NCBI GenBank assembly: GCA_034440615.1
Contig: JAOTOM010004044.1
Coordinates: 107,001-171,000 of the forward strand
DNA from: Ashinkailepas kermadecensis
Taxonomy: Eukaryota > Arthropoda > Thecostraca > Neolepadidae
Length of the DNA: 64,000 nucleotides
Direction of reading: 5' to 3'
A program made the translations under genes and the position numbers. This document shows, one piece after another, positions 7,801 to 55,058 of the stretch. Within the stretch, counting starts at the first letter, position 1, and each line of letters opens with the position of its first letter. The notes below the pieces were generated by a model that was not told where the DNA came from, did no database searches, and saw nothing but the letters and a program-made list of their open reading frames with translations.

Positions 7801-10578
7801 TGTTGGACTCTCGATCGCAAGATTATGGGCTCGAATCCCGCAACTGGCTGCATTACCGAGTCCACCCTCGACCAATCGGCGTGGGAGGTTGGCGACGCTG
7901 TATAACCTAGCAGTCGAATGTGTCGTAAAAGAACCCAAGGTTCTTCTTGTAGCTTTACTGTTATGTAGGCTGTAGCTGTGCTATAACTGTAGACTAGTGC
8001 AGGCTGTAGCTGTACTGTAGCTATACTGCAGCAGTCCTTTGACGGTCTACAGACGATGCAGAGTCTGACGCCCGAGGAGTACGAGGAGGCGGGCGCGACC
8101 ACCAGTCGGTGCGATTCGGACGAGGACGCCGAGGCCGAGGACGAGGACGAGGACGAGGACGAGGCTGTGGTGGACATCAGCCGTCAGCTGAGCGAGGAGC
8201 TGCAGACTGTGCGGCAGTCGGCCGGTGTGGTGGCGCCGGTCGGGTCACACGGCGCCAGCGCAAGGGGCCAGCACGTGGGACAGGTAGGTCTGGAGCTGCT
8301 CCCGTCACTGGTGCTCCTCGGTCTCCGCTGCTGCCCAGCCTCCGCTGCTGCCCAGCCTCTGTTGCCCAGGTGGGTCTGGAGCTGCTGCCCAGCCTCCGCT
8401 GCTGCCTAGCCTCTGTTGCCCAGGTGGGTCTGGAGCTGTTGCCCAGCCTCCGCTGCTGCCCAGCGTCTGCTGCCCAGGTGGGTCTGGAGCTGCTTCCCAG
8501 CCTCCGCTGCTGCCCAGCGTCTGCTGCCCAGGTGGGTCTGGGGTTGTGCCTGGCTCCCGACGCCGCTGGAAATCTTGAGTGCTACCTAGGTGGGCCGCCA
8601 GGCTGAACTCAACCGGCCTGCAGACGCCAGGATTTCTGGTTTTCACGCTTGGTTGTCCGGCAACGTCTGGGTCGGACTCGGTCCGGCCGAGTTTCGCTGG
8701 CGCTCGCTGGCGGGGTCAAGCCTGGTCGGCTGGGGACCTGAGCCGCTCGGGCCAGCTCGACCGGCGCGCCGATGTGGTTCGGCGCCCGGTCCAGTCCAGA
8801 CCCAGTCCTCCATTGCCATAGCCGGGAGGACGATAATGCACACGAAAGCGCTGACTAAGAACGGCCAACGGCGTACGCGAGCGTCGTGCGGTGACCGCAG
8901 CGACTGAAATTGTGCGACCGAAAATGGCTGCCTGGGTGGATGGAATGCATTCGCTGCTTCAGCCACACCGATGGCCAGTGGTGAGAGAGCCGGTCGGAAC
9001 GATCATCGGCCCGGCACGGCCGGTCTCAACCTTGTCTGGGTCATTTTCATCCCCTCGCCTGCACCGTGTCCCTCCTTGATTCTATGTTGTTGAAAAGTGC
9101 CTCTCTGCCTCACAAAACGTGGCATGCGGCACTCATTCGACCAAGGTATTTCTCATTGCCCTCCGAATCCATTTCATTGCCGGAAGTCACAACATTCGCA
9201 AGGAGTAATTCACCTTAGCTGAGAACACTTATTTTGAAGATTGATTTCAGCTGTAAATGAAATCAATCTGCTATTTTTGACCCAGTACTGACCAGTCCTG
9301 TTGACAATCTCGATGGAAAACTAAGAATGTATCGTGCTACACCTCCGCATGATGGAATTGGTTCTTTCTGGACGTTGTTTTTCCCAATGTCGTTGTGTTC
9401 TGCTGCCTTTGGAAGATTATAATGTCCATGCCAGCCTTTCTCCAATCTATGCAAACTTACTTGGAAGATCCTTAGCATTCTTGGCACGTACGCTGGTCTG
9501 TTTTCTGTGAAATGTCACCGACTCCTGCTTACCCATTAAACTTTCCATCTACCCGCAGTTTGCACATTTTCATTGTATTAGTAGGCGGACGTTTAGTAGC
9601 GCAGCTGTGGTTTAGAAGCTCTTGCGGGACCATGTTGTTAGGCTGTCTTGTTTTAGAGTAACGCTTTTGTAGCTGTGACTGTGCATCGGGTCGACGCAAA
9701 CGGAATCTTGTGCTCCTCGAGGTTCTCCAAATAGATGTTGTTAAATCTGATCGGACTGCGCGACCCTTGTAAGTCATGCAGCCAGCGTTTCCATTGCTGC
9801 GCCAATAGCGTGACAACAGACGACTGAGCCCGTCCTGGGCATGCAGTTTAGAATATAGCTACTTTGTGGATAGGTTGCCCGTGACTGCATCACTAATTTG
9901 TATTTGGTTTGCTGTGATGTCGTACAGCGCGGCAGATTCATTGCAACCAGTGTGTAGCATCTTCCTTCATCGAAGACATTGGGTAGCTGCGTCACGTGTT
10001 TTCAGCTGATTACCATTTGTCCTTTGACATGTGTGGGCCTGTGTTAGTCAGTTTGTGTTCACCTGTGTTTTGCTAGCAATACTTGGTTTCCTTTCTCGAT
10101 AAATTGAGAAGAAATTAATTATGTTACGGTGTACTTTTGTTCAGAAATCCATTGTGTTTCGGTGTTACTTTTCTTCCTGAATTCTATGTTGTTGAAAAAA
10201 AGATAATTTATCCATGCTATATATTTTGGAAGTTGAAGACATCTGGTCAAAGTTGTATTATAAAATTCAAGCATCTTTCTTGGTACTTTCCCATTTTGCC
10301 TGAAGGATATCGTGGTTAGTAATTTAATGTTATAAGTCATGTGTCTTGCTACAGTACTGTCAAATAGTCAGCGTATTCATTTATCACTCTTATTATATGT
10401 GCTGTAGCCTCCTTCACTGGATGCCTGCGAATCATTTTCTTTCTTTAGGTAAACCACACCAGTGTCACGAAAAATAATTGAACAATCTAGTCGGTTTGAA
10501 GTTACGGTATGTAGCTTTTGCCTCCAGTGATATTGTTGGCTCCTTGTTTCCTTGTATTTACTGTGGAAATTGAGATGC

Positions 10579-10651
<73 letters not shown>

Positions 10652-13600
10652 AGATGTATACTGTATACCCTTTTTGCTTCCCCATGCTCTCCTGAAGCAT
10701 TAAATCATCAGCACTAGGTAGTTAATGCTAAAATCAAGAGCCCATTATAATATGTTACTGCTTCTTACAGCATTGAGCCGAATATATCGCTGCGTGAGGC
10801 CACCTGGTCGGGACGGTACAACTGGCAGAACATGCCCACTGTGGCCCTCAATGGGCAGCCACTGATAAGCTATGGCTTCTACAGGATGTGTACAAAAGGA
10901 ATTTGTTGAAAGGCAGGACTGCAAGGACTTGGCGTGGATCTCCGTTCCCCTCTAGCATAGGAAAGAGTGTTGTGTATATAGCGAAGGTCTGGTTTATGAA
11001 GCAAATATATTGACAAAATGCCGATTGATATTTGCGTAGTTACACATCGCGTAATAATATATTTATAATTTCAAACGCGCTAATTATTAACTTTTGTAAC
11101 CGGTATGCAGTAAGCATTCATGTTCCCTGACACTGATGATAACCTGTTGACTGTTCAAAATTTTGACCACGCCCGATGGCACTTTGAGACTGATGTGCCG
11201 CAGTCTACACTGAGAAATCGAACACCAAGTGGCCGGAAACGGATTTTGTACCACGTGGTCAAAGTGCAAGCATTGTTTCTTAGAAAGTAGTATAAGAGGA
11301 ATGTAGGTTTTGTTTCAAGCGTGATAGTAAAAAGCAAGTCCATAATTTCACCCCATTTCCTCAGTGACTCGGTTAGTTCACCAAGCACGAACACTTCAAA
11401 GCTGCATACACTTATGTCAGGAGTTAGACTAACTCCTGACATAAGTGTATGCAGTTAGTAAGGAGTTAGTATGAAAGGTGACAATACTTTACTTTTGAAC
11501 CCTACTATAGGGCAGAGGGGGTTAATGGGAAAATATGGGTGAACCCGGTTCAGAAGAGTGGAAGATGATTTCCTGCTGGGTGTTAATTCGCACCCAAATC
11601 CGGATATTTTGGGACGCTGTCCGCACACTGCGTCCACATCGCAGTGTCCACCCTCTGACCTTGTGCACCCGTGCCGCAGCCACCACGCCCTGGGGACTCT
11701 GGCCCGATGGAGCGGCACGGACGGCGTGAGGACGACGACGACTGCCGGCGGCGCGGTCGTCCGGCGCAGTACGGCACCGAGCCGCGCCGCGACCCCGGTG
11801 TGCCGGCACACCGACCGGCACGGCGGCGGTACAGCTCCGGCAGCTCCACCAGCGATCCGGACAGCGGTCACGGCCGGCGCTACCACCCGCAGTCGCGCAA
11901 CGTCGAGACCATAGCCGAGGTGAGTGGTGGTGGTGGTGGCTCCCGGTAATAGCCGAGGTAGGTGGTGATGGCTCCCGGTAATAGCCGAGATGAGTGTGGT
12001 GGTGGCTCCCGGCATTAGCCGATGTGGGTGGTGGTGGCTCCCGGCAATAGCCGAGGTGAGTGTGGTGGTGGCTCCCGGCATTAGCCGAGGTGAGTGTGGT
12101 GGTGGCTCCCGGCATTAGCCGAGGTGAGTGTGGTGGTGGCTCCCGGCAATAGCCGAGGTGAGTGAGGTGGTGGCTCCCGGCACTGTCTGCACGGCGGCTG
12201 CGGCCTGTAGAGGTCGGGATCACTGCCGTCTGCGGAGGTGGGCACTCACCTGCACCACCGGTGCCGGGGCCATCCGAGGTTCGTGTCCGGCGTGTGCTAC
12301 CTTCCAGACCAGTGCGCCGCGTCGGCTCAGCGTGTTGCGTGCCTCCGTGTGCCATTAGATCCGTGAGACTGCTGGCGAGCGGGCCGTCACCCAGACCACT
12401 CGAGAGCAGGCCGGTGACCAGCTGCAGAAGGAGACTGTGACTCGCGAGGTGCGCCGCAATGTATCCAGCGCGCCGCACCCCGGTCAAAGTGAGCGGCCCG
12501 TACCTACAGTGTGTCAAGTAGAGTATTCCGTGTGTCAGGTAGTATCTGTTGTCTGTCTCAGATTAGCCCACCTCAGGTGGTGAGTGAGTGCGTAGGCAGA
12601 GTGGGCGCCCCGTGCTTGTGACAGGCTGGGTGTCCTGTACCTGTGGCAGGCTTGGCGCCCAATACCTGTGGCAGAGTGGGTGTCCTGTACCTGAGGCAGG
12701 CTGGGTGCCCCATACCTGTGTCAGGCTGGGTGCCCCATACCTGTGGCAGACTGGGTGCCCCATACCTGTGGCAGGGTGGGTGTCCTGTACCTATGGCAGG
12801 GTGGGTATCCTGTACCTGTGGCAGGCTGGGCGCCCCATACCTGTGACAGGGTGGGTGCCCCGCACCTGCGACAGGCTGAGTGCCCCATATGATGCCCGTA
12901 TGCTTGTGTTGACTGCATGCTGACGTGTCCGTGAAGCTAGTCTATGTGCCCTGTTGGTATCGTGCAGCATGTTATTGCTTCTCCTCGGGACGACTAGTAT
13001 GTGTACCACGTTATGCTGTATCGACTGTATGTATTGCCCCCCCCCCCCCGTATACCTGGTCGTGTGCCATGTCGGCGTTGTATCGACTGTATGTGGTGCC
13101 CACAGTATGCCTGGTCGTGTGCCATGTCGGCGTTGTATCGACTGTATGTGGTGCCCACAGTATGCCTGGTCGTGTGCCATGTCGGCGTTGTATCGACTGT
13201 ATGTGGTGCCCACAGTATGCCTGGTTGTGTTCCACGTTGGCGTTGTATCGACTGTATGTGGTGCCCACAGTATGCCTGGTCGTGTGCCATGTCGGCGTTG
13301 TATCGACTGTATGTGGTGCCCACAGTATGCCTGGTTCTGTGTCATGTCGGCGTTGTATCGACTGTATGTGGTGCCCACAGTATGCCTGGTCGTGTGCCAT
13401 GTCGGCGTTGTATCGACTGTATGTGGTGCCCACAGTATGCCTGGTTCTGTGCCATGTCAGCGTTGTATCGACTGTATGTGGTGCCCCCAGTATGCCTGGT
13501 TGTGTTCCACGTTGGCGTTGTATCGACTGTATGTGGTGCCCACAGTATGCCTGGTCGTGTGCCATGTCGGCGTTGTATCGACTGTATGTGGTGCCCACAG

Positions 13601-16600
13601 TATGCCTGGTTCTGTGCCATGTCAGCGTTGTATCGACTGTATGTGGTGCCCACAGTATGCCTGGTTCTGTGTCATGTCGGCGTTGTATCGACTGTATGTG
13701 GTGCCCCCAGTATGCCTGGTTGTGTTCCACGTTGGCGTTGTGTCGACTGTATGTGGTGCCCACAGTATGCCTGGTTCTGTGTCATGTCGGCGTTGTATCG
13801 ACTGTATGTGGTGCCCCCAGTATGCCTGGTTGTGTTCCACGTTGGCGTTGTATCAACCGTATTCACTCGTCTCCTGTGTAATTGGTGATTACTTCCGTAC
13901 CATCCTCAGTGAGTTGCAATTTCTGATTACCTCTGTACCATCATTTGGCTACAATTTTGTATTACCTCTGTGCCATCCTCAGTAGGCTACAATTGATGAT
14001 TGTCTCTGTGCCATCCTCAGTGGGCTACAATTGGTGATTGTATCTGTGCCATCCTCAGTGGGCTACAATTGGTGATTGTCTCTGTGCCATCCTCAGTGGG
14101 CTACAATTGGTGATCGTCTGTGCCATCCTCAGTAGGCTACAATTGATGATTGTCTCTGTGCCATCCTCAGTGGGCTACAATTGGTGATTGTATCTGTGCC
14201 ATCCTCAGTGGGCTACAATTGGTGATCGTCTGTGCCATCCTCAGTGGGCTACAATTGGTGATTATATATGTGCCATCCTCAGTGGGCTACATTTGGTGAT
14301 TGTCTGTGCCATCCTCAGTGGGCTACAATTGGTGATTATATATGTGCCATCCTCAGTGGGCTACATTTGGTGATTACATCTGTGCCATCCTCAGTTGGCT
14401 ACAATTGGTGATTATATATGTGCCATCCTCAGTGGGATGCAATTGGCGATTGTCTCTGTACCATCCTCAGTGGGCTACAATTAGTGATGGTATCTGTACC
14501 TTCCTCAGTGAGCTACAATTAGTGATGGTATCTGTACCATCCTCAGTGGGCTACAATTGGTGATAGTCTCTGTGCCATCCTCAGTGGGCTACACCAAGCA
14601 GGTGTCGCGTCGCTCCATCCACAGCGACGGCATTACCGACTGCCTGGAGTCGCAGGCTGACGACACCTACCTCAAGGTCGAGGACAAAGGTCAGCCGCCA
14701 GACAACATGGAACTCCAAGGACGCCACGATTGGAACTTCAAGTTTCCGAATTTGGGAGAGCGTTGTGGTGAAGCTATTGAAACTACATATTATCATTTTG
14801 CGAGTTTTTTTTTCTTCAGACTAACTTCAGAATGTTGCGGGGTAAGTTGTAGTTGGTGCAGTTGTATCACAGAACCATATATTAACGTATTATTACTGCA
14901 AGGAAAACTGGTGATTCTTGCCCACATGCGATGGGGAGTTCATAAAAGGATAATGAACTATGGTTGGCGAATTATACTTATGTCTATTATGTAATATAAT
15001 TATAATTGAAACATCCCGAGCGTTCTCTCCGAATTATATCTTCTTCCTGTTGCGGGTGGCATAGCGATGCTGTATCCCGTTTCGGGACCTTGTTCCATAT
15101 CCTGTGTTACTTGGCTGATGTGATCGGGTCACGATCTTTTTAGTCGGTACACCTGAATGTAAAAGTCAATCATCAATCATCAATCATCTGCGGACTGAAA
15201 GTGGGATGTAGTGTGTCGTCAGGACGTTTGCTATTTATTGACGTGATCCCCAACTGACGATTGCTATTTATTGACGTGATCCCCAACTGACGATTGCTAT
15301 TTATTGACGTGATCCCCAACTGACGAGCGAACCGGTCCTCTCACGTGGTACAGGGTAAACTGGCTGCAAGCGGGATGGAACGGCTGTTAATTCACGATTC
15401 ATCATCGTCATTCCATTCCAGAAGACTGACGTGGTACCGGATCTTCAGCACAGACTTGGTGCCCAGTCTTCAGAACGGACGTGACGGGCAGTTTTTTTTG
15501 CACAGACGTGGTGCCCTATATTCAATGCAGATGCATTGCTCAATCCTCAGCACAGACGTGTTGTGCAATGTCCAGTGCAGACATGCTGCCCAATTTCCAT
15601 CGGAGACGTGCAGTCTAACTCAGTCAGTGTTACCGGACTGAGTCAGGCTGAACTTCCCAAAATTAATCCCTTTTTAGCGTCACATTACTCATGGTCCCAA
15701 AATTGCACTAAAATTGTATTAACCGTCATTGAAGCCGTACCTTCACACACTAGAATGTGTAGGGGAATTCAAGATGAGTTGTCCAAGTTGTACTTGAAGA
15801 GGGCCTTGGGCTCCTGTAGTGACACCCTGTGTCATCCAGAGGCTGACGAGCAGAGCCTCTGACTCACAGAGCCCCTCTCGCTGTGTCCCTCAGAGGCTGA
15901 CGAGCACTGACTCACAGAGCCCCTCTCCCTGTGTCCCTCAGGGGCTGACGAGCACTGACTCACAGAGCCCCTCTCCCTGTGTCCCTCAGGGGCTGACGAG
16001 CGGATCCTCTGACTCAGAGCCCCTCTCCCTGTGTCCCTCAGAGGCTGACGTGTTCGAGTACCTGCGGCGCGAGTTTCCGTACGTGCACGTGTCTGGCGAG
16101 ACCAAGCGGCGCCTCCTGGGACAGTATCGTCAGCAGATGAAGTACATCATGAGTCTGGTCGAGCCGGTCGAATCGAGGAAGATCAAAATACGGGTAGGTA
16201 CTAGGTACTGACCGTCGACGTCTGAACCACGCCGCGTTTCTGTCGACTGGCCCAGTCGAATGCCTTCCTGTGATGCTGGCGTACCCGCCTCCTGAATTAC
16301 CTGTGTGGATGGGAGGGGGTATTTACGGTGCTGGCGTGAAAGGACCGTAGCTGAGATGCTCTCACAAATCCACTGAAATATCCGTGAGTGATAATTATCC
16401 AGACATCTACGCGAGTGATTCCAGGTAGTCGCCGTGCTTTAGGCTTGGCCTGCCAGTGCCGTTGAAGTCTTCCGGGCAGTGTTGTCGAACCAGGCAAAAC
16501 GCTGAGACAGCTCGGAGTACGACAGGAATGCGTGTTGGTGTCCACGACAACATTCGTCGTTCAGCAGAAGCGCGGCTGTTTGCGTCGCGATGCCGCCGAC

Positions 16601-40500: not shown

Positions 40501-43500
40501 ATGTCGATACATCTTTGGGAAGGACGTCGGTTCAGTGTTCAGTAAGTGGTATATTCCACCCTAGTTCACTATTATCTGGGCAGTTGGTATCTACTCCACG
40601 TGTCGAGTAGTGTCAGGCTTTTTCCACGTATCGAGTAGTGTCCGGCTTTCTCCACGTATCGGGTAGTGTCCGACTTTTTCCACGTATCGGGTAGTGTCTG
40701 GCTTTCTCCACGCATCGGGTAGTGTCCGGCTTTCCGATGCGATGGCTGCATTACTTCGAACAGCTTGCTCCATTGGGCCCTGCTCCTTCTCCCGCCTGCG
40801 TGTCCCATCACCTCGAACAGGTCATGTTGTCCCGTTCCCTCACCTGACTTTTATCGGCAGTCCTGTGTCGTTCCCTCGCGCGGGCCGCACGTGCCTTCCC
40901 GCCGTGCCGGATCGGGAAGTGATACATTCGACTGCAAGACGAGCCCGTTGCACGCCGCGCATGCTTCAGGTCGTCTGTACGGTCGTCTGCTGTCGTCTTT
41001 GCGGTCGTCTGACGTCTTTCCAGTTGTCTGACGTACTTACGGTCGTCTTTACGGTCGTCTGACGTCTTCACGGTTGTCTGACGTCTTTGCGGTCGTCTGA
41101 CGTATTTGCGGTCGTCTGACGTATTTACGGTCGTCTGACGTATGTATGGTCGTCTGACGTCTTTGCGGTCGTCTGACGTCTTTCCAGTTGTCTGACGTAC
41201 TTACGGTCGTCTTTACGGTCGTCTGACGTCTTCACGGTTGTCTGACGTCTTTGCGGTCGTCTGACGTATTTGCGGTCGTCTGACGTATTTACGGTCGTCT
41301 GACGTATGTATGGTCGTCTGACGTCTTTGCGGTCGTCTGACGTCTTTACGGTCGTCTGACGTCATCTTTGCGGTCGTCTGACGTGTTTACGGTCGTCTGA
41401 CGTCCTTCTGAAACGGAACTGAAAAGTCGACAAGCGCGGGCGCTCGGTCCCAGCTGGGTCCTGACGGACGTCGGTCGTGCCCGTGTGGCGCAGGTGGGTC
41501 GTATTGCGCCCATTGGAGCCGGTTTGTAAGTCGAGATAATCCCACTTCCGGCCGTACTTCAAGCGGACTTAAATTGCCGCTTCGGAGTCGCAGTTGCGCG
41601 CCGCACCCGTCCAAATCGGATGCCCGCAGGCGATGTAGGCGGATAGCAGATGGTCGTAAAGCCTGGAACGTGCGCGATGTACGACGAGCTATGCTGCTGG
41701 GGGATTAGTGAAGCTACCGTTGCCATACAGATGGGGAGAGGTAGCTGTAACGTTTGACACATGGTCGAATGGCCTGGAGTCGCAAGCCAGTCGCCCGGTT
41801 TGATTATTGTATTGTTTTTTGTTTTGTTTTTTTGCAGCTCACTGCGACTGCATGCTCAAAGGGAGTGAGTGTGTTTTTGTTTTGTTTTTTGTTTTAGTTG
41901 TGAAAATGGATTATATTGAGGCCATCAGCTTAAAAAGGTGCTCGAAAAACGGAGTTGGGATATTCCGGGATAATACGAAAATGCTTGTCTATCTCTTGAT
42001 GTACATGGTGTTGAGTTTCCGTGCCATGCGTCTTTACGCGTCTGTAATACGCAGTTAGGCAGATGCTGCACAGTTGTTGCATAACTTTCCAACATGACTG
42101 GAATCTCCCTGCAAATACATTCTCTCCCCACGAACGCATTAGTGATTTTCCTGAATGCGCGGATGCGGTTTCGGTGCAATATTGGTTGTGGTGCAGTATT
42201 TATAGATGCGATGAACGAAAACATCATTTAGAATTGGGCGCCGCTTTATTAGAAATTACGGTGGAACCAGTGCATAATATTACTTCACCTTCCGTGCTCC
42301 TCTTTTGGGCGTGAATCAACCGCAAATGTTGTCAAAATTATAGACAACGGGAAACGCATCGGTCGCTGACAAGAAGACGTCTGATTTGTCTGCCATGGAA
42401 TAGCAATTAAGAAGACCTATGTAGAACACGCCTTGCCCCGTATAAAGATGTTCGGTAGATGCTTGTTTTTTCTCTCTCTTTTTATTTAGTTCGAGTTGTT
42501 GGAGAGGCTTCACAGAATCAGAGTCCGCACTGAGCGAAAGCTTGTTGCATCGACACCGAACGCACCTTCGGATTGGAAAATACCACTTCTCTAGCACAGT
42601 TTTTGACCGAGAGTTTATCGCACGCACAAAGTCTGCCACGGCCGCCTAGTGCCTGCACCCCCGACCTTGCTTGGCCAGTTGCCAACTGGCCATCCCAGCC
42701 GGGGGCGTTGTACAGCGAGCGCGTGAACTCGAACCGGTTGTGCCGAGACGGGGAAAGCTTTGCGGGCCAGCGCTTTATGCACTGAGCTAACTAGGGGGCG
42801 AAGCCCCAGAACCAGGTGTTCTTAAGATATGCTATGCCTTAGGTTAGCCAGATTGCTTCTGCGGGAATGTTGTCATCGTGTGATTTCACATGATCTGGAT
42901 AACACATTGTATGTTTTGGGTAAGCCTTTTTCAGCAAATAGAATGCTGTTCATTCCATTCAAATTACCAACAGAACTGTAACACGGTTTTGTGTGTTGTT
43001 CGTGAGTCTTCACTGGCGTGCATCTCGTTTTTGTACTTTTGGATTTACTGTGGGCTCGGTCACTACCAATGGATCAGGGGTAACCACTTACCCTGTGCCG
43101 TACCCCAAGTTCAAGTGTTGGCCGGTTGGCAGGGAGTTGGTGGATCTGCCGGACGGCGGCGTTGTGGGGCTGGACTGGCATCGACAGTCGTTCAGAGCCG
43201 GCCAGGCCCGTGACGACCCGCACCCCATCGTCCTGCTGGTGCCCGGACTGACGGGTGAGGTGCTCTACAGCAGCCACCCATAACGCCCCAGTCGCCATGT
43301 TAGGTCCCAACACTGTGACGACCCGCACCCCATCGTCCTGTTGGTGCCCGGACTGACGGGTGAGGTGCTCTACAGCAGCCACCCATAACGACCCGGTCGC
43401 CGTGTTAGGTCCAAACACTGAGTCACCGACCGACCCGCACCTCATCGTCCTGCTGGTGCCTGGAGTGACGGGTGAGATGCTTTACAGCAGCTGCCCATAA

Positions 43501-46500
43501 CTCCCCAGTCGCCGTGTTAGGTCCCAACACTGTGACGACCCGAGCCCCATCGTCCTGCTGGTGCCTGGAGTGACGGGTGAGGTGCTCTACAGCAGCCGCC
43601 CATAACTCCCCAGTCGCCGTGTTAGGTCCCATCGTGTTGTGTTCTTACATACCCCCTTCCCTTGCCAACAAGCTACGAAGCAATGAAGCAAGTGGGGATG
43701 TGTCATTTAGTTGTATTTTGGTCAGCTCCTAATCCCATGGTCTGGTTCAGATTCACTAGCTTTGAATCAGTTTCGACTGCTCTGATCCAGGTGTGACTGG
43801 TCTGGTGTGGTGTCGCCCGACAGGCAGCAGCCAGTCGGACTACATCCGCAGCCTGATCCAGGTGTCTGAGCGGATCGGGGCCAACTGCGTGGTGCTGAAC
43901 CAGCGGGGCCGCGGCGGAGTGCAGCTCAAGGTAACTGGCGCTACACCGCCGTCGCATTAGCGCGGGAGAATACTCACTGACCGCTGTATAACCCATGCAG
44001 TTGATGCGCCCCCTACCTTCCCCCCCCCCTCCCCCTCCCCACAATGATCGGTGACGATCGGCGGTCTATGTGATTAATACCGCTGATATTGACGTAAGTC
44101 CGTCTTGTTGACATCAATATTTTGTGTACCCATTAAGACTGCACCAGGTTATTCCAGCATAATTATGACACTCACATTGAACATCAACATGGCATATTAC
44201 GATAATAAATCACGCTGAAATATTCCAATACAATGCTGGAAAATATGTTTGCATGGAATGTGAAGAAAGTAGAATTCACTTTGTTACCAAAATGTTTTTA
44301 TTCCTGATGCACATGTTTGCTAGCCAATTATGCTGCAGTTGTTGGAATGTCAACTGAGGCTGACAACTTCCACATTGTTTCTCCATACGGCCTCAGTAAA
44401 AATAGCCTTTGATTATCGCGTAAAAGGGCCCCACTAAGTTAAAGCTATTGAATTGGAGAGTGTGGGCTCGGCAGAGTATACTGTGCGTGCCACGTCTTAT
44501 TTCCATACAACGGCCGTGTGTGTAATATGAATTGTCAACAATTGTCCGCCTCATGGATCCCATCCGCTCCTTCCCTCCCTGCTCCCTGTCCCCGTGGCGA
44601 AGCTCATTCCAGGAAGTATGATGTACATAAGTGTTCGGGTGCGCGTCGTCGTTACTAAGCAGCGTGGCAAACAGTATCAAGTGATGGAGCTGGACTACGC
44701 AGTCAGTTGATAGCTAGGACCACGCAAGTGCATTTTGGGATGGTTATGAATGGAAGCCAAGATCACAGCATCGAACACAGTGGCATGCTCTGGCTGCATC
44801 GAGTGCGTGGTTCTCATGTGTGGTCACTGTTCTATATCAGGCCCCACACCCCCCAGCCTGGAATTTTTAAAACCATACATTTTAAATTCCCCGAATTTCA
44901 CATTTCTGACGGTTTCCAAACCCGTGAAATGGCGATAGTTGAGCGTATTGAGAGCTACCGTGTTGAAATGCACAACGTTTCGGAACTTCCAATTTCGAAC
45001 GCGCCAGTGCTTAAAAAAACCCTATGTTTATAACCTCCGATTTCGTCTAAACTCCAAATGCTTCAAGTGCCCACAACTTCACAAACCTGAATTATTTTTT
45101 AAACCTGAAAATGCAGGCAGTAAGGCAAATAACGCTGCGTCGTATCGTAATTCAGACTGAGCCTCGACAGCTCCGTGGAAAAAGAATATAAATGATTGCT
45201 TTTCCAAACGGCCGCGCTGGCTGGAGTACGGACTTCAATCACGAGCTTCTGAAAGTTAGCCACCTGGGAAATGGAAAGGGTGAGAGCATGACTCCATAGC
45301 TCTGCAACGCCTGCATTGCCAAAACAACACACACAGATGACTGCTGAGAAGCAGACAGGGCTATCAGTTTCCTAAGTCTGAGATATCATATCAGACAGGG
45401 GTATCAGTTTCCCAAGTCTGAGATGCCCAGTTGGTTATGCCTCGCTTGCATGGTGTTCTGAAAGCGTTCAGGCGCATTTTACAGTGTACTGCCGTCCAAA
45501 TTTGTTTGCTTTACCACTATCGTTATCTCGTCTTATCGTCTGATTTCGGACCCCACGTACCTACTGTGCCGTGGGCATGTGACCGTGACCGTGACCGTGA
45601 CCGTGACCTGGCTGCTGTGTGTTCGCCAGACCCCACGGACCTACTGTGCCGTGGGCATGTGACCGTGACTGTTACCGTGACCTGGCTGCTGTGTTCGCCA
45701 GACCCCACGGACCTGCCGTACCGTGGGCATGTGACCGTGACCGTGACCGTGACCTGGCTGCTGTGTTCGCCAGACCCCACGGACCTACTGTACCGTGGGC
45801 ATGTGACCGTGACTGTTACCGTGACCTGGCTGCTGTGTTCCCCAGACCACACGGACCCACTGTACCGTGGGCATGTGACAGTGACCGTGACCTGGCTGCT
45901 GTGTGTTCGCCAGACCCCACGGACCTACTGTACCGTGGGCATGTGACCATGACCGTGACCGTGACCGTGACCTGGCTGCTGTGTGTTCGCCAGACCCCAC
46001 GGACCTACCGTACCGTGGGCATGTGACCATGACCGTGACCTGACTGCTGTGTGTTCGCCAGACCTCACGGACCTGCCGTACCGTGGGCATGTGACCATGA
46101 CCGTGACCGTGACCGTGACCGTGACCGTGACCTGGCTGCTGTGTTCGCCAGACCCCACGGACCTGCCGTACCGTGGGCATGTGACCATGACCGTGACCGT
46201 GACCTGGCTGCTGTGTGTTCGCCAGACCCCACGGACCTATTGTACCGTGGGCATGTGACCATGACGGTGACCGTGACCTGGCTGCTGTGTTCGCCAGACC
46301 CCACGGACCTATCGTACCGTGGGCATGTGACCGTGACCGTGACCGTGACCGTGACCTGGCTGCTGTGTTCGCCAGACCCCACGGACCTACTGTACCGTGG
46401 GCATGTGACCGTGACCGTGACCTGGCTGCTGTGTGTTCGCCAGACCCCACGGACCTACCGTACCGTGGGCATGTGACCGTGACCGTGACCTGGCTGCTGT

Positions 46501-49500
46501 GTGTTCGCCAGACCCCACGGACCTACTGTACCGTGGGCATGTGACCGTGACCGTGACCTGGCTGCTGTGTGTTCGCCAGACCCCGCGGACCTACTGTACC
46601 GTGGGCATGTGACCGTGACTGTTACCGTGACCTGGCTGCTGTGTGTTCGCCAGACCCCACGGACCTACTGTACCGTGGGCATGTGACCGTGACTGTGACC
46701 GTGACCTGGCTGCTGTGTGTTCGCCAGACCCCGCGGACCTACTGTGCCGTGGGCATGGGACCGTGACCATGACCGTGACCTGACTGCTGTGTGTTCGCCA
46801 GACCCCACGGACCTACTGTGCCGCCAACAGTGACGATCTGGGCTACGTCATCGACCATATACACGCGTCCTTCCCGCGGGCCCGCATCGTCCTCACCGGT
46901 GTCTCGCTGGGAGGGTGAGTGCGTGCCACTGGCCTGGTCCACTGGTGGAGTTTACCAGAGTCGTTCGAGAATTTCAGGTAGTGCTTTTGCACACATCCCC
47001 ACAGGCACTAGTGTTGAATTTCTGAAAGCTAGGTCGTGCTCGGCCATCATTAGCTGGTGCTCAAGCACCGCCTGTTAGCGCTAAGACTCCCCCCATGACC
47101 TAGTCTGAAGGTAGGTCTTGTCATCACCGCCGGAAAAGTCGTTTGTTAAGACGCACATCTTGCTGCGTTTATTCAAGTTGCCTTCATGTTCTGCATGCAT
47201 GCGCAGCCACACAGGATGCGTCAGGCTTTGGTGCAAGGCACACAAACATAAATACCAGGGCAGTCAGAGGCCAGCAGGAACTTAGGACCACGAGCCAGAG
47301 CTAGGCATGCATTGACATGCAGTGTGGGTGTGGTTTCTGCAACGAACCGAATCCAATAACAGGTTACACAGATAGCATCCAAAGCCATGCGCGAAGCAAA
47401 TCGGGTTGGTTTACGTGGTGGACATTGCACAGGTGCATTCGCGGTAAGCACTTCGACAGGCCATTACTTTATACAAACTCAGCAATGAAATCAAGGTGAG
47501 CAAGCCAGCAATGAATAGCCTATAATCAGCATCCAGCGAACATGATTCCATCTGTCAACCACACCAATCACCTGTGCAGACATAAACGTACCAAAAGTGT
47601 TCCAACTCCGCCGGTGATGAATGTTAAGAGGCAATGTGCAGCACACTATACACGCCACCAAATTACTGACTCTCACGCACCTTTAAATCATGCATTATTC
47701 TTTAACTGAAATAGATAATCACATATAGGACTTGCAACAGGTCTGTTCACTGGTGTCTCACCGATAGCGCAGAACGGATAGGGTCACCAGTACCTTATGT
47801 GGAGGGTAAGTGTTCACGTCTAGCCCTGAGGGTGGGTATGTTTGCCTGTGTCTCACCTGTATGGTGAGTGCTCTTCATTGTCTCCGAGATGGTGAGCCTG
47901 GTGAACGGTATCTCGGCGGAGCATGCTCGGCCACATAGTGGTATTTCACCATGACATTACTGATGTCATACACTGATTCAGTATTACTGTGTTGAGAGGA
48001 GAGCTCATGCTGACAATGATTAATAGATCATAAAAATGGGGTTTGGTTGGATATAAATCACAGTCATGTGTTTCCGAGATGGTACGTCTGATCTGGAGGG
48101 CTCAAAGGCAAAACGTTTGAAGCTAATCGTTGCATAACGTGGCGCCTGGTACATCTCCTTTGTTTCGTTTCACGTGTTCTTCGGTTTAGTTTGTTGACGA
48201 TTCTCGGACTTCACTGGATTATAAAGATAGCTGCATGACCTATGCAGGCGATGCGCCCCTAAACCGCAATTATAAAGATAGATGTTTCATAAGGTCTGTA
48301 CTTCGGCTTGTCTCGGCAAGCCTTCAACGAACCAATATTTGGAATACAACATAAGGGATCGAGTTGCAAGTTTCACATAATTGAAGGACATAGACATCAT
48401 TTAAATTATCGCACGCACTAATTCATTCGGGTCACTTTTCAACAAACGACTACACTGATACAAAAAGAGCAGGGACATAATAGCCTAACATGACACATGC
48501 AGACACATAGGGGATAGCGCACACATTTCACTTCGGACATCACTGGATGACATTTAAATTCGGGTCGCTCACCTCACTTCGAGTCTCACATTTGAAGCCA
48601 CACAATTATTTCGCTTTGGAGTATGCAAGCTCATTTGCACCGGTAAACTGCAGCATACAGTCACATGACTATGCTGCACTGAATTACTTTTCATGAATGA
48701 CCTAAGAACTACATATCTGGGATCAAAAATGGCATCAAAGATGTCATCAAAAATGTCGGGATAGCAGCGGCTATTTTCCGCACTGAGAATTGGCAATGTT
48801 CACACCGGCAAAAAAAAACAACTCAGCTGGTTGCCTGGGACCCGATTTACTCCCAGCCATGCATACTGGCGAGCGATAACGTCACCACGTTCAGTTTCTG
48901 GGCGGCGTCCAACCCCAGGGGTGTGGGGAGGGGCAGGAACGATTTTCGTGGCAGAGGGCAAACTCTTGACTGTCATCTCTCTGCCTTCCGTCTCTCTCAC
49001 GGAAGAAACTCGGATTTCGGCAACTTCGATTCTGGTGCACCAAAATTATTTGTCTGGCTGACTTTGGCTAGCAATTTCATTACATGCATTCGAATTAGAG
49101 TGCCTTCGAACATCTGTAGGGATATTTTCCCAGTCAGAGGGGCACATGTCTCCAGTGAGAGGGTGGGGTGGGGGGGGAGGGAAGACTAGTCCATAGTCCA
49201 TCACTAACTATGCCCATGGCCATTGCTGGCTATTGTTATAGCGCAAGCATTCTGTTGAGCAGCTAGCAACCAAGCAATAATACAGATGGTTGTCCCAGCA
49301 CTGACACCAAGGAAGGAAAAGTAATGTGTACTGTTTTGTAGCACACACTGATATGCACATACCTACCTACCTAGGTGTAGGTTAATGGGAGGGCACCATA
49401 CATGAAGGCAATGGGCGGGTCGAAATAGACTGTGGTGGGCATATCACATAGGTCTCATGTTCAAAGTTAAGGTTATGTTGGGCAAATCCAACACGGGGGA

Positions 49501-50457
49501 GTGTCCTCCCAGCTGTGTATAACCTATGCAGTTGATGCGCCCCTACCCCCCCCCCCGCCTCCCGGAGTGTCCTCCCAAAGGCATACAAAGCTACACCCCT
49601 GGATATGCACGAGCTAACCCCTCCAAAGGGTCAAGACATCTTCGACAGGTAGGCCTACTCGTCGAGCACGCTGCGACCCATGGTGGCATTGGCCGCGACT
49701 GAGGCCCGCCTGTCGAATCTGTGGCTGGACCGTCGGGCAGGTCCATCCACCCGGTGCAGATTAGGACACTGCACGTGGCCGGGCCCGGGTCGGTCCGCAG
49801 GCGTTGATGAACTATAGAGATTCGAGCAACGGGGCTCGTCACCTCCCGCATGGTCTAGTGGTTAGGATACACGGCTCTCACCCGTGAGGCCCGGGTTCGA
49901 TTCCCGGTGCGGGAAATGCTTTTCCTACACCACCATACATTGCGGAGCGTTTCCCACGCGTTCAGAAATGCTGGCGGAGTCGAATTCTTCTTCTGTCGCA
50001 GTTATGCCGGCATGTCGTATGCCTCAACATTGCATTGCATAAATAGAGTTGCACTTCAAAAGGATGAAGCCAGAGTCATTTTGTTGATAATTAGGTGATC
50101 CAGTCCATTAGGGCACATGCTTTACTGGGGAAGAAGTGCCCTATTTGGCTGGGCATCGGTTTTATTCATACGAGAGCCGGAGATTAAATTCACAGTCTAA
50201 TGCCAGAATTGGGCAAGAACAGCTGTTTCATTCCCATAGATATGGATCAGTGTATTGACACTAGGTGTTCAATCAATTTAAATTACTTCAAGATGATTTT
50301 CTGTCCCCAATTAAGAGACAGTCCCTGTGCTTCTACCCAGCATGTGGCATAATGAATAAGCCTCTTCACCCAGGTGTAAGGTGTTTGCCATTGAGAAAGA
50401 GTTACCCCTACTGGAATAATGGTATGTTTCAGAGAATGGATGCCCACTCTCACACAT

Positions 50458-50548
<91 letters not shown>

Positions 50549-53500
50549 TATGCTCTGGAATGTTGTGCCCCCACTATGATAGGTGATGCCCATCATTGGA
50601 ACGAATGCACTTTAACACACGCAATGAAGAGCCTCACATAATGCAAACTGGAGGCGAAAGTGGAGAATTCCGCCCCCCCTGTGGTGCGCATGTTGATGTA
50701 ATTAATTGTGTCTCATTATGAAAGCATCCCCTATCACTGTTAATAATATTCCATATTGAAAACACTATCCCGGCCCACATTTTATGACAACCCTTCCCCA
50801 TGCCCTGCAGCATAATCGTGGGTAACCACCTGCAGCAGCAGTCCGCGGCCTGATGACAACCCCCCCCCGTGATGCAGGATGATCGTGGGTAACTACCTGC
50901 AGCAGCAGTCTGCGGCCTGATGACACCCCCCCCCGTGATGCAGGATGATCGTGGGTAACTACCTGCAGCAGCAGTCTGCGGTCTGATGACACCCCCGCCC
51001 CGTGCTGCAGGATGATCGTGGGTAACTACGTGCAGCAGCAGTCCGCAGCCTGATGACACCCCCGCCCCGTGCTGCAGGATGATCGTGGGTAACTACCTGC
51101 AGCAGCAGTCTGCGGCCTGATGACACCCCCGCCCCGTGCTGCAGGATGATCGTGGGTAACTACCTACAGCAGCAGTCTGCGGCCGCTGTCGACAAGGTGC
51201 TCGCCGCCATGATCATCTCGGTGCCGTGGAACGTGTTCATCGGCTCCGACAGCCTGGAGAGGCCGCTCGTCAACCTGATGCTCAACAAACACCTGGCCGT
51301 GTGTCTGGTGGACTCGATCAAGCTGTGAGTGTTGCGCTCGGCTCGGGTGCTGGGCAGGGTTTGCAAAAGCCGGCTGAAGTTTGTTTTGGCTGTCAGTGGC
51401 CAAAACTGGTTTCGGTCGGTTCACGTGTGTACATGATATAGCCGACTTGGGTTGGCCAGAGATGTCCATGACCCTGCAGTGCCAATTACAGTGCAATAGT
51501 TCCTTGAGTCGTAATCAGACTTGTTGCATGTAAGATGAGTGCTATTATATGGCATTTGACGATACAGGAATGTTTAACCCAATCGTTTCACCCACAGCTA
51601 CCATTTTAGTTTCTGAAGAAAGAAGTCTGACAATGCCATGTAGTTTCTCTGGGGCGGTGGTTAATGCATTAGGCTATAACCACCTCCTTGATTTGGAAAT
51701 TTGGTGTTAGTTTTATGTTGTTGGCCATAAGCATGATGCCCAATTCCCCCCCCAAGCCGCTCAACACATAAATCGTGCATTATTTGTGTACATCAGGAAA
51801 GTGATGGACTGGTAAACGGTGAGTAATTATCAGTATTTTGGGGACGGAACTACAACAATTAGCGAGACATGCCAGGTTGTTCCTGCAATATTATTTCATG
51901 TACGTGTGTTATGTGACAATATATGTCACAAAATTGTCACTTGAGCGGTTTGTAGAAGTTTGCCCTTGTGTAGAGCTTGATATAAACTTGTGTTACTCTG
52001 CATCTATGTTACTGCTTTGTGTGGCATGTCCGTGCCTGATGAATTCCTGTTTTGCCATGTTGCAGTCATGAAGACGTGATCAACATCAAGGACGTACCAT
52101 GGGATTTCCAAGAGGTGCTCAAGGTAGGTGAAAGATGTTCTGCTTGCCAGCAGCATCAGTCTTTTCTGAATCCGAAAAATAATGGTATGCAAGTTTGTCG
52201 AGAACTGTTCAGAGGGGCATGCTGGGCATCAGGTATTTGTGAAGCTAACTAAGGCAAAGTTATGTGAATTTCGTGAACATCGTTGGTGAAGAGAGGGAGA
52301 AAACAGAAAACCTCTCCTCTTTTCTTTTTTTTTGTTTTTCTCTATGTCTTCTCTTCAGAAAACATCGTTGAGTGCATGCACATTGCACAGCGGCTCGTGC
52401 ATTGCATCGACTGCCGAGGCAGCTTGATGTAGTCCGTCCAACATGTGCTTCCTCCACGTCATGTGGGAAGGTATTTCACGTCTGGGTGCGCTGATGCTTC
52501 ACTTGCCGTTCACGATTCAGCAATAACATGCTCTCGTCAAATACCCGGGCAGCATCAGCTGACAGCAATAACATTCCGCCTTAGTTCAGCAATAGCATGC
52601 TCTCATCGCCTGCCAAGGTCGCATCAGCCGACGCCATTAGCCGTGGTTACATTGCTACATCTGCATGGTTGCATGGTCACCTGATGATTACATGGTTGGA
52701 TCTGCATGGTTGCATGACAACTTGATTGTTACATGGTTACATTTGCATGGGTACATGGTTGTATATTCCTGGTTGCATGATCGCTTGATGGTTACATGTG
52801 CATGGTCGCATTGTCAATTGATGGTTACATGGTTGCATCTGTATGTCTACATGGTCACTTGATGGTTACATGGTTGCATCTGCATGGTTGCATCTGCATG
52901 GCTACATGATCACCTGGTAGTTACATGAGCACGTGCTGGTTACATTTGCATGGTTGCATGGTTACACTTGTGTGATTACATGATCACTTGATGATGCACT
53001 GGTGTTTAGGTGCTTGTCGGCAATGGGGTTTCATTGTCGACAATCGACAATCATTTAGCGCTCGTATGTTTGCAAGTAGGAAATTATGCTCCTATATATA
53101 AATGTTGGTTGAAGTTTGATATTGGTTGTGAGGAAGGGTGGTGCATCACATCGATGTTTCCTTGTTGAAAGAATGTGAATATGCTGCCGGACGCTGACCG
53201 ATCTCTTGTTGGATGATGGTGGGGTTTCCCCGCCGTTGTAAGGGATCTTCTCACTGGCTCATCTTCTACTGCTTCGATGGCAAATTCGGCGTCAGCTAGG
53301 GTGTCAAACCTAGCATAGTCCTGGCGTGACCCGACTGCCTAACCGAAGTTAGGCGAGGTCAGGTCACGTCAGTTTCGGTTAGACCAAGGTTAGTTCAGGG
53401 CGGCTTGGGTTAGCTCAGGTTGCCTGTGCGGCCAACTGAATGTCGCCCGCGGTCAGGTTGGGGCCCCTTGTGCTGCCAGCTGTGGTGTTGCTCAGCCAGC

Positions 53501-55058
53501 TGAGTGCCACCTCTGTGGTCAGGCGGGCTCGGAGCGTGGTTAGTTGCGCGCCGCGCCGCTGGTCAGTGGCGTTCCGTCTGTGACGCCGCCGGTGGCGTTC
53601 CGTCTGTGACCCCGCCGGTGGCGTTCCGTCTGTGACCCCGCCGGTGGCGTTCCGTCTGTGACCCCGCCGGTGGCGTTCCGTCTGTGACCCCGCCGGTGGC
53701 GTTCCGTCTGTGACGCCGCCGGTGGCGTTCCGTCTGTGACCCCGCCGGTGGCGTTCCGTCTGTGACGCCGCCGGTGGCGTTCCGTCTGTGACCCCGCCGG
53801 TGGCGTTCCGTCTGTGACGCCGCCGGTGGCGTTCCGTCTGTGACGCCGCCAGTGGCGTTCCGTCTGTGACGCCGCCGGTGGCGTTCCGCCTGTGACCCCG
53901 CCGCTGGCGTTCCGTCTGTGACGCCGCCAGTCGCGCACAATCCGCGAGTTCGACGCGGCGTTCGTGGTGAAGCAGTTCGGCTTCCGCGACGTGAACGAGT
54001 ACTACGCGGCCGCCTCGCTCACCGACAAGCTGGACCGCATCAAGGTGCCGCTGCTCGGCCTGAACGCCGCCGACGACCCGTTCATACCGCTGTCGGGTGA
54101 GTCGGCGGCGACCAGTGGTCTGGGCGTGAGTTGGACGTCTCGCAGTCGAAAGGTTGCGGGCTCGAGTCACCTGACGCCACTCTTCGGCGTGAGAGATTGG
54201 CGACGCTGCGTGACTCAGCGGTCGATGTGTCGTGAAACCAATAACCGGCCAGGTGAGTTGGCCGACGAGCCAGGCCCTGTCGCCGTCTGAGGTCGGCGGA
54301 ACACTTGAGGTCGGGGTCAGAGCGCCGGTGACTTGATTGGATCGGTTGGCGGCGTGTTCCCCTTCTCAGCTCAGTTGACAGGGCGTGTGTCCCCTTCTCG
54401 GGCCATTAGCTGGACACCGATGGCATTGCTAGTTCAGTAGCGGAGCACCCGTTCCCTGCTCAGGTCAGCAGCAGCAGGGCACTCTGTCCCTCTCATTTCG
54501 GTGGCGCAACCTTTAGCCCATCTCAAATCAGTTGGTGGGAGGTATTCGTATGATCAGGCGAGTCGACTGGACTCAGCTGGACTTGCCTCATTCCCGCCGC
54601 CTGCAGTGCCCCTGACGAATATCTCCGCCGCCAGAAGTGCCCCTGACGAATATCTCCGCCGCCAGATGTGCCCCTGACGGATATCTCCGCCGCCAGGAGT
54701 GCCCCTGACGAATATCTCCGCCGCCAGAAGTGCCCCTGACGGATATCTCCGCCGCCAGAAGTGCCCCTGACGGATATCTCCGCCGCCAGGAGTGCCCCTG
54801 ACGAATATCTCCGCCGCCAGAAGTGCTCCTGACGGATATCTCCGCCGCCAGGAGTGGCCCTGACGGATATCTCCGCCGCCAGGAGTGCCCATGGACGCCG
54901 TCCGCCAGACGTCGCACGTGGCGATCGTGATGACGTCGCACGGCGGCCATATTGGCTTCATGGAGGGTCTGCTGCCGTTCGGCAAGAACTACATCGACCG
55001 TCTGTTCGCCGAGTACTGCCGCGCTGCGCTGCAGAACCCCGAGCTCATCCAGAAATGA
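37410..55058 (+). CDS. ABHD3: ABHD1/ABHD3-type alpha/beta hydrolase (gene span, 9 exons)
   Basis: Joined exons 37410-37505, 39899-40068, 43133-43254, 43824-43930, 46802-46914, 51145-51324, 52066-52123, 53931-54096, 54883-55058: 1,188 bp, 395 aa, all phases consistent. An N-terminal membrane anchor (WIVLSIAGFITYYF) is followed by the family block ERYWPTPWCLEARLQTIL, then LDW, VLLVPGLTG (oxyanion region), LNQRGRGG, the nucleophile elbow GVSLGG (Ser), LNAADDPF (Asp) and SHGGHIGF (His). So the full Ser-Asp-His triad is present. Family members (ABHD1/2/3, yeast EMB8-like) are membrane-anchored lipases or phospholipases; ABHD3 acts on phosphatidylcholines with unusual acyl chains. The choice between ABHD1 and ABHD3 cannot be made here. 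Five of nine exons carry exon-edge minisatellites. Confidence 0.93.
37525..39780. other. ABHD intron 1, nearly CpG-free
   Basis: No repeat class or exon was identified; by eye only about one CpG in 2.25 kb. A block at 37620-37930 is rich in ggggcact/ggtgcc motifs. Confidence 0.5.
39899..40068 (+). CDS. ABHD3: ABHD exon 2
   Basis: Acceptor cccggcgtcgacag, donor CCAGAG|gtgacg. Encodes KPVMAVKAGSKFARFLES, then YWPTPWCLEARLQTILGS, the strongly conserved lid-proximal block of the EMB8/ABHD1-3 family. Confidence 0.93.
40120..40585 (+). repeat. dispersed repeat, copy 2
   Basis: Same-orientation relative of 25370-25860, starting about 50 bp after the exon 2 donor. Confidence 0.85.
40600..40740. repeat. 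28-bp minisatellite
   Basis: Five units of tccacgtatcgggtagtgtc cggctttc in ABHD intron 2. Confidence 0.92.
40970..41410. repeat. 17-bp minisatellite with higher-order duplication
   Basis: Basic unit ggtcgtctgacgtcttt / gtatttac variants. A ~165-bp block beginning tttccagttgtctgacgtac is repeated as a whole (41015 and about 41180), a higher-order repeat. Confidence 0.9.
42600..42799 (-). mobile_element. tRNA-derived SINE (family B)
   Basis: Minus-sense head ccctagttagctcagtgcat with a B-box-like ggttcgagttc, and the same body as 17298-17497 (tggccagttgccaactggcc in plus sense). Confidence 0.8.
43133..43254 (+). CDS. ABHD3: ABHD exon 3, oxyanion strand
   Basis: Acceptor ttggccggttggcag, donor TGACGG|gtgagg. 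Encodes ELVDLPDGGVVGLDWHRQSF to HPIVLLVPGLTG. Confidence 0.93.
43210..43635. repeat. ~115-bp minisatellite copying exon 3 end and donor
   Basis: Four units; each holds caccccatcgtcctgctggt gcccggactgacgg|gtgagg (about 45 exon bases and the donor), then tgctctacagcagcc and gtgttaggtcccaacac. The first unit is the real exon end. Confidence 0.95.
43824..43930 (+). CDS. ABHD3: ABHD exon 4
   Basis: Acceptor tgtcgcccgacag, donor CTCAAG|gtaact. Encodes SSQSDYIRSLIQVSERIGAN then VLNQRGRGG, the conserved strand and RG.G loop before the cap. Confidence 0.93.
43985..44022 (+). mobile_element. truncated SINE tail
   Basis: gtataacccatgcagttgat gcgcccc, followed by a C/T-rich run; a tail-only copy of the common SINE end. 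Confidence 0.65.
45570..46820. repeat. ~65-bp minisatellite leading into exon 5 acceptor
   Basis: About 18 units. Each has ctgctgtgtgttcgccag|ACCCCACGGACCTACTGT followed by accgtgggcatgtgaccgtg and variable (accgtg)n. The last unit provides the true acceptor (46801/46802) and first 18 exon bases. Decoy units run into TGA after four further codons. Confidence 0.95.
46802..46914 (+). CDS. ABHD3: ABHD exon 5, nucleophile elbow
   Basis: Acceptor gtgtgttcgccag, donor GGGAGG|gtgagt. Encodes TPRTYCAANSDDLGYVIDHI then RIVLTGVSLGG; the Ser of GVSLG is the predicted catalytic nucleophile. Confidence 0.93.
48228..48275 (+). mobile_element. truncated SINE tail
   Basis: atgacctatgcaggcgatgc gcccctaaaccgcaattataaag: a tail-only copy; ttataaagatag flanks it on both sides (about 48219 and 48269), a likely target duplication. 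Confidence 0.75.
49505..49560 (+). mobile_element. truncated SINE tail
   Basis: gtgtataacctatgcagttg atgcgcccc then poly-C; flanked by gagtgtcctccca on both sides (49499 and 49566), a target duplication. Confidence 0.75.
49844..49915 (+). tRNA. tRNA-Glu (CTC)
   Basis: 72-nt cloverleaf: acceptor stem tcccgca / tgcggga with discriminator A, A-box tggtctagtggttaggat, anticodon stem cacgg/ccgtg around loop ctctcac (anticodon CTC at 49877-49879), B-box ggttcgattcc. A TTTT terminator follows at 49920-49923. No disruption is seen, so it is probably functional. It lies in sense orientation inside ABHD intron 5. Confidence 0.97.
50456..50545. repeat. (AC)n microsatellite
   Basis: About 44 uninterrupted CA/AC dinucleotides; His/Thr or Val/Cys reading frames over it are artefacts. 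Confidence 0.99.
50811..51178. repeat. 67-bp minisatellite leading into exon 6 acceptor
   Basis: Units start at 50811, 50878, 50944, 51011 and 51078, then the real exon at 51145. Each has gccccgtgctgcag|GATGATCGTGGGTAACTACC (acceptor plus about 36 exon bases). Decoys then diverge to cctgatgacacccc, giving an in-frame TGA; the real exon continues ccgctgtcgac. Confidence 0.97.
51145..51324 (+). CDS. ABHD3: ABHD exon 6
   Basis: Acceptor gccccgtgctgcag, donor AAGCT|gtgagt. Encodes MIVGNYLQQQSAAAVDKVLA then ISVPWNVFIGSDSLERP, the cap-forming segment after the nucleophile elbow. Confidence 0.93.
52066..52123 (+). CDS. ABHD3: ABHD exon 7
   Basis: Acceptor ttttgccatgttgcag, donor CTCAAG|gtaggt. 58 bp encoding HEDVINIKDVPWDFQEVLK. 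Confidence 0.88.
52640..52990. repeat. degenerate minisatellite in intron 7
   Basis: Irregular repeats of tacatggttgcatctgcatg and gtcacttgatggttacatgg. Confidence 0.85.
53557..53930. repeat. 26-bp minisatellite running into exon 8 acceptor
   Basis: About 14 units of gtggcgttccgtctgtgacg ccgccg. The final unit ends gtgacgccgccag|TCGCGC, the true acceptor. Two upstream units also have the ccgccagt variant. Confidence 0.93.
53931..54096 (+). CDS. ABHD3: ABHD exon 8, catalytic Asp
   Basis: Acceptor tctgtgacgccgccag, donor TGTCGG|gtgagt. Encodes SRTIREFDAAFVVKQFGFRD then YYAAASLTDKLDRIKVPLLG and LNAADDPFIPLS; the Asp in the AADDPF block is the predicted triad acid. Confidence 0.93.
54108..54250 (+). 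mobile_element. tRNA-derived SINE (family A)
   Basis: Contains caccagtggtct-like head, ggttgcgggctcgagtcacc B-box region, and tail gtgtcgtgaaaccaataacc; begins about 12 bp after the exon 8 donor. Confidence 0.8.
54590..54890. repeat. 31-bp minisatellite leading into exon 9 acceptor
   Basis: About nine units of tgacggatatctccgccgcc ag(g/a)agtgcccc. The last contains the true acceptor ccgccgccag|GAGTGCCC at 54882/54883. Confidence 0.95.
54883..55058 (+). CDS. ABHD3: ABHD terminal exon 9, catalytic His
   Basis: Encodes VPMDAVRQTSHVAIVMTSHG and GHIGFMEGLLPFGKNYIDRL, stop TGA at 55056-55058. The His in SHGGHIGF completes the triad. Confidence 0.93.

Follow-up and report, generated by a model that had tools for sequence, protein, structure and literature searches.

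Probable mirage-type minisatellites at exon-intron junctions of three neighboring genes in Ashinkailepas kermadecensis

The window analyzed here is a stretch of 64,000 bp from the genome of Ashinkailepas kermadecensis, in which gene models were built from reading frame and homology. Three genes were obtained, with 43 modeled exon-intron junctions in total: gene A on the forward strand, gene B on the reverse strand and gene C on the forward strand, which include 20, 11 and 12 junctions, respectively. Gene A (6042-20250) consists of 11 exons, and its frame remains open across 10 of 10 introns when the exon-proximal sites are used; the junctions of this gene rest on frame continuity, acceptor 11680 being set from frame alone. 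The corrected protein matches no Pfam family at E-values up to 1 and is without a recognized homolog, while by eye it has a coiled-coil-rich appearance. Gene B, incomplete at both ends, encodes an EEF2KMT-like methyltransferase that matches the EEF2KMT protein of PDB entry 8fzb (E = 1.5e-32); five exon joins of the query are aligned without gaps, and the exon edge at 23342 falls outside the aligned part. Gene C (43060-55058), the 5' end of which is missing from the model, encodes an ABHD/YheT-like hydrolase with profile matches to Abhydrolase_1 (E = 2.6e-14) and to NCBIfam PRK10985 (E = 2.2e-41, under that model's own cutoff), and its frame is open across 6 of 6 GT-AG introns with exon-proximal sites. 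Protein relatives were compared in Pfam, NCBIfam and PDB only. A strong tRNA match (49844-49915, Rfam 65.7 bits) is located within the large intron 46915-51144 of gene C.

Tandem arrays are abundant in the window. TRF reported 36 merged arrays (period of at least 10, score of at least 80) that occupy 11,406 of 64,000 bp, or about 18%. The original prediction had placed arrays at 14 junctions, and all 14 of these coordinates are indeed GT-AG sites at the exact exon base. The arrays were located by TRF, and each junction was then aligned to its own array to determine the unit content, with the following results:

8284-8541, forward strand: gene A donor 8283; 54-bp unit, copies reading CAG followed by GTGGGTCT, with 3 exon bases only; GT kept in 3/3 copies; TRF start at 8323
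11911-12182, forward strand: gene A donor 11919; 34-bp unit with 9 exon bases; GT kept in 6/7
13880-14593, forward strand: gene A acceptor 14585; 38-bp unit with up to 9 exon bases; AG kept in 17/17
15859-16050, forward strand: gene A acceptor 16042; 48-bp unit with 9 exon bases; AG kept in 4/4
19361-19607, forward strand: gene A donor 19366; 25/55-bp unit with up to 6 exon bases; GT kept in 8/8, of which 3 are in frame and open
22968-23375, reverse strand: EEF2KMT-like donor 23342; 38-bp unit with up to 34 exon bases; GT kept in 10/12; distal end degenerate
27326-27483, reverse strand: EEF2KMT-like donor 27489; 39-bp array starting 5.5 bp into the intron; no donor copies
30998-31091, reverse strand: EEF2KMT-like donor 31095; 16/32-bp array starting 3.5 bp into the intron; no donor copies
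31237-31542, reverse strand: EEF2KMT-like acceptor 31280; 70-bp unit with 44 exon bases; AG kept in 3/3
43210-43631, forward strand: ABHD/YheT-like donor 43254; 105-bp unit with up to 45 exon bases; GT kept in 3/3
45549-46823, forward strand: ABHD/YheT-like acceptor 46802; unit of about 68-74 bp with 22 exon bases; AG kept in 16/17
50805-51184, forward strand: ABHD/YheT-like acceptor 51145; 67-bp unit with up to 40 exon bases; AG kept in 5/5
53566-53935, forward strand: ABHD/YheT-like acceptor 53931; 26-bp unit with 1-5 exon bases; AG kept in 1/14, most copies having CGG
54594-54890, forward strand: ABHD/YheT-like acceptor 54883; 31-bp unit with up to 11 exon bases; AG kept in 8/9

The claim that the repeat unit holds the terminal exon bases together with the splice site is borne out at 12 of the 14 junctions by the junction-to-array alignments; it fails at 27489 and 31095, where the arrays cover the start of the intron and contain no copy of the donor. 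In the longer arrays, junction-bearing copies are still present distally (e.g. -1253 at 46802 and -691 at 14585), which indicates that the founding unit spanned the junction. Donors and acceptors are equally represented (seven each, or five and seven if the two arrays without donor copies are dropped), and unit lengths range from 16 to 105 bp according to TRF. The arrays were also said to extend never into the exon, and a search with the junction 24-mer found no copy on the exon side of any of the 43 junctions. The units had been described as wholly different and their formation as a positional process rather than the spread of a repeat family. Both statements hold, since no pairwise BLAST match was detected among the 14 arrays at E = 1e-3, and a single repeat family was rejected as the source of the arrays. 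Donors and acceptors are affected alike. A search of 230 kb elsewhere in the genome with the array sequences returned 24-bp matches of one array only.

Periods divisible by three occur in 4 of the 14 junction arrays, as expected without coding constraint. Three further arrays of the window (3570-4162, 6852-7001 and 60025-60374) have periods of 27, 24, and 45 or 129 bp, and all three are found in long open frames. Only that at 6852-7001 belongs to a modeled exon, in gene A, where it encodes an acidic repeat.

Most copies of the junctions retain the splice dinucleotide. GT or AG is kept in 83 of 88 junction copies from 11 arrays, with 53931, 27489 and 31095 outside this count, and the rows of decoy sites and longer introns of the original prediction are present. 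When joined to the neighboring exons, 3 of the 83 copies that keep GT or AG would give a local product that is in frame and open (at 23342 this comparison was made without the downstream exon); the copies at 31280, which add 70, 140 and 209 bases, are all out of frame. Protein variation through the use of decoys was rejected on account of these low numbers. Sites were also scored with a small weight matrix derived from 15 donors and 14 acceptors; of the 112 matches with GT or AG in a looser search, 70 scored no lower than the true site. Since almost all decoys would break the local frame and many score like the true site, selection of the exon-adjacent site would have to depend on position, and such a choice suggests exon definition. 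Variants common to the copies and absent from the exon were seen in all copies at 51145 and 54883 and in two of three at 43254, in a comparison of three arrays. This sharing indicates that copies exchange sequence among themselves while the exon copy stays apart. Among the 21 introns with both ends modeled, 13 have an array at one end only and none has arrays at both ends (P = 0.065). The latter result is suggestive only; two decoy rows in a single intron are perhaps not tolerated.

Whether the excess of arrays at junctions is larger than chance depends on the null that is used. With respect to coverage, 11 junctions lie within arrays, compared to 7.65 on average after rotation (p = 0.15, not significant), and copies of the junction 24-mer are present at 8 of 43 junctions versus 21% of 2000 random intron positions, which is no enrichment. 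These two tests are results against an excess at junctions. In contrast, when junctions were rotated within genes, 13 arrays were found to stop at a junction so that the exon is left outside, versus 1.88 expected, and as many as 13 were seen in none of 5000 rotations (27489 and 31095 are counted here, 8283 is not). Under a more permissive rule, in which an array touches any junction, the corresponding numbers are 13 versus 7.05 (p = 0.005).

Arrays gain copies between fixed flanks, and the position of the founding unit is therefore a better question than coverage. We chose a founding-unit null because, in the longer arrays, junction copies had been found as far as the distal part; this null was taken up after the 24-mer result was known. 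One unit per array was placed at random, with positions wholly inside exons barred. On this basis 12 of 26 arrays span a junction, compared to 1.65 expected (P = 1.1e-8), in a window that was picked because the pattern had been noticed there. The result persists when at least 6 exon bases are demanded (10/26, P = 1.6e-6) and when unit lengths are doubled (P = 2.0e-5). By gene, the counts are 5/12 in A (P = 8.5e-4), 2/8 in B (P = 0.049) and 5/6 in C (P = 9e-6), while genes B and C pooled give 7/14 versus 0.82 expected (P = 3.9e-6). Array density equals 5.04 per kb at -50 to +10 bp of junctions and is 0.68, 0.76 and 0.52 per kb further out, so that junctions exceed the remaining intron roughly seven- to tenfold in arrays per kb. 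The GC content of junction windows (0.637) is above that of flanks (0.516) and deeper sequence (0.476). The composition of exon flanks was rejected as the cause, as the GC-matched expectation is 1.97 versus 12 found (P of about 1e-6), and a general nearness to exons is disfavored by the flat zone from 10 to 200 bp.

These comparisons make it unlikely that arrays arise at one rate throughout array-rich introns, with some of them meeting junctions by chance and a selection filter acting on the result. Arrays are plentiful both in the window and in a further 230 kb, of which they account for 13%, and the coverage and 24-mer tests agree with such an explanation. Because arrays grow from within, their flanks should mark the founding segment, and it is the number of founders spanning junctions, together with the lack of any excess at 10-200 bp beside them, that argues against it.

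The further sample consists of 230 kb from 14 contigs, in which 82 arrays (period of at least 10, score of at least 60) were detected. According to a crude test of coding potential, 12 of 145 array ends adjoin coding-like segments, compared to 1.7% of randomly chosen places (P = 7e-6 with a threshold of 18); the other two thresholds gave 13/145 and 11/145. The 12 ends include two that belong to one and the same array and two from 18-bp arrays in cuticle-like coding segments. Outside the window, three junction arrays could be read base by base, all of them in loci picked by contig number; only junctions in recognized genes or near arrays were inspected, and the number is not a rate. They are as follows:

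L008, 6386: acceptor of an FGGY-kinase gene; 3 copies with 12-23 exon bases
L013, 7920: acceptor of an ankyrin-bearing gene; 25 copies with AG in 20, and an open-frame join to the exon ending at 9390
L003, 3701: donor of an SLC4 bicarbonate-transporter gene; one clear copy, with Pfam positions 359-417 and 419-490 meeting across the junction

The ankyrin label is based on an Ank_5 exon on the same contig strand, the exon at 7920 itself having no Pfam match. Two other arrays are misfits: at C2000:9600-10033 the copies of what is presumably the exon start lack AG at the equivalent place, and the array 30713-32258 ends about 125 bp before the likely acceptor. The frame of the FGGY-like gene breaks about 320 bp beyond the acceptor (at about 6700 of L008), and that of the SLC4-like gene changes at L003:4319-4330; either change may reflect a pseudogene or a sequence error. 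Upstream of the SLC4 exons, L003:5013-8668 is a 3.6-kb array with a 12-bp unit.

Several additional features of these contigs were recorded. Contig C1900 (L019-L023) contains seven cuticle-protein-like segments that resemble one another, and in some of them 18-bp repeats form part of the coding sequence. The two segments that were profiled both match Chitin_bind_4 (E = 1e-8), a family that marks arthropods. A barnacle host would be in line with the GC content, and also with the nucleotide diversity (PMC8270832). A tRNA-derived SINE-like element is found in the window at 5198-5360 and 19606-19765, where both copies overlap weak Rfam tRNA matches, and on other contigs at 93-96% identity. Weaker copies (about 75-87% match) are located at 54107-54246 and 7865-7930 of the window.

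A function of the decoy rows, e.g. in slowing or tuning splicing or in sending transcripts to nonsense-mediated decay, appears very unlikely. It would fit the high retention of GT and AG in copies that nearly all would yield a frameshift or a stop. Intronic minisatellites of Caenorhabditis elegans have also been linked to splicing choices, as stated in part of one report (PMC4039745). In seven arrays pooled, the exon-derived part of the copies diverges less from the true copy than the intron-derived part (9.1% versus 12.6%), though not in every array. However, the exon-derived part thus changes too, AG is lost in 13 of the 14 copies at 53931, and intact sites are equally predicted by recent duplication.

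We also regard an assembly artefact, in which collapsed or expanded repeats were misplaced at exon edges, as highly improbable. Perfect or almost perfect identity is seen between some units (69/69 and 68/69 bases at 31280, 99% matches in 27326-27483), as such an error would predict; against it, many units have diverged through small indels and point changes, and arrays of this kind are also present on three further contigs.

The least probable reading is that the arrays are remains of an intron-making event, either tandem duplication according to the Rogers model or introner insertion. The copies do carry AG or GT, and intron gain by such duplication is described in the published text available to us. 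However, a resemblance of donor and acceptor windows in 13 array-bearing introns (lowest p = 0.023, followed by 0.047 and 0.073) is not beyond what 13 comparisons allow, none of the 21 introns has arrays at both ends, and introners would share sequence, which no two arrays do. The role in making new introns suggested by the original prediction is accordingly not upheld. Gap-free alignments to EEF2KMT of PDB 8fzb were obtained for the exons at the array-bearing joins 31280, 31095 and 27489, and for this reason exon and junction appear to predate the array.

Taken together, the arrays are probably minisatellites of the type known as mirages, produced by local tandem duplication at existing junctions and tolerated since the exon-adjacent copy is the one spliced. 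According to this scheme, a segment of some 25-105 bp across the splice site would duplicate in tandem at an existing exon-intron junction and then expand through ordinary minisatellite turnover. The extra copies would become part of the intron and would be harmless as long as the copy adjoining the exon is spliced. That this site is chosen in RNA may be expected from frame and homology, and the choice would be made by exon definition. Duplications that go deeper into exons would presumably be removed by selection. Tolerance alone predicts the rate of the deep intron, a rate lower by a factor of seven to ten, and something must therefore raise birth or survival at junctions; duplication may either start or survive more often there. 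The non-significant coverage and 24-mer tests speak against the mirage account, as do the two of 14 arrays that copy no donor, the one that has lost nearly all AGs and the borderline value for gene B alone.

We tentatively propose, as a possibility of fairly low probability, that junctions are true hot spots of minisatellite birth through repair at the edge of haplotype homology. In a hyperdiverse genome, haplotypes would pair well in the exon, and homology would end at the exon edge. Repair synthesis leaving the exon might then meet a mismatched intron and fall off, and re-invasion a few dozen bases back would duplicate a segment across the junction. If this is true, hot spots should occur at donors and acceptors alike and independently of sequence, mirages should be tied to nucleotide diversity, and splicing must handle rows of equal sites, which would favor exon definition. 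For lancelet, a SNP polymorphism of 4.39% is given in the portion of the report available (PMC4284660).

The arrays are natural tests of splice-site choice, with as many as 17-20 intact sites following one another and a frame that demands the exon-adjacent one. They make introns longer, probably contribute polymorphism, and are a potential source of error in gene prediction and short-read assembly. Should junctions truly be hot spots of minisatellite birth in two distant phyla, exon edges and local duplication would be connected in a general and measurable way.

The closest known systems are the mirages of lancelets, described in the accessible parts of two reports as minisatellite-like tandem duplications of the exon-intron boundary in Adh3, the globin genes BflGb6 and BflGb9, TnC and PGBD5 (PMC3087553, PMC3902484). 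According to the same passages, they occur at 5' and 3' boundaries with gene-specific unit length and AG or GT in many though not all copies (PMC3087553, PMC3902484). Lancelet mirages are also reported to leave splicing normal and to undergo somatic changes in length. In BflGb6, copies homogenize mutually and the boundary copy is left out (PMC3087553, in the part available). The arrays described here are similar in all four structural respects: the unit spans the boundary (12 of 14 arrays), both boundary types are affected with varying unit length, AG or GT is present in many but not all copies (nearly all in the 11 counted arrays, a single one at 53931), and copies are homogenized with the boundary copy apart (three arrays inspected). 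However, the host is not a cephalochordate but an arthropod, the arrays affect 12-14 of the 43 junctions of three neighboring genes whereas the lancelet reports, as far as their accessible text extends, concern single genes, copy number reaches 25 compared to 6 in the available description of BflGb6, and the positional peak was measured against nulls.

Other systems are less alike. Intron gain according to the Rogers model shares a duplicated segment bearing AG and GT; here, in contrast, the intron ends are not alike beyond chance and the EEF2KMT exons are conserved across the joins. Introners likewise provide many splice-site copies, which are dispersed copies of one element according to the excerpt available (PMC9860276), whereas the present arrays are local and have no family sequence. 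In exon-edge tandem repeats of human segmental duplications, internal tandem repeats alter gene structure; the part of that report available (PMC2812944) concerns differences between paralogs, as opposed to intronic arrays beside open-frame exons. No arthropod report of such arrays was present among the matches listed from the open-licence literature. The structure itself is thus known from lancelets, and what is new is apparently its occurrence in another phylum, its density in three genes and the measured positional peak.
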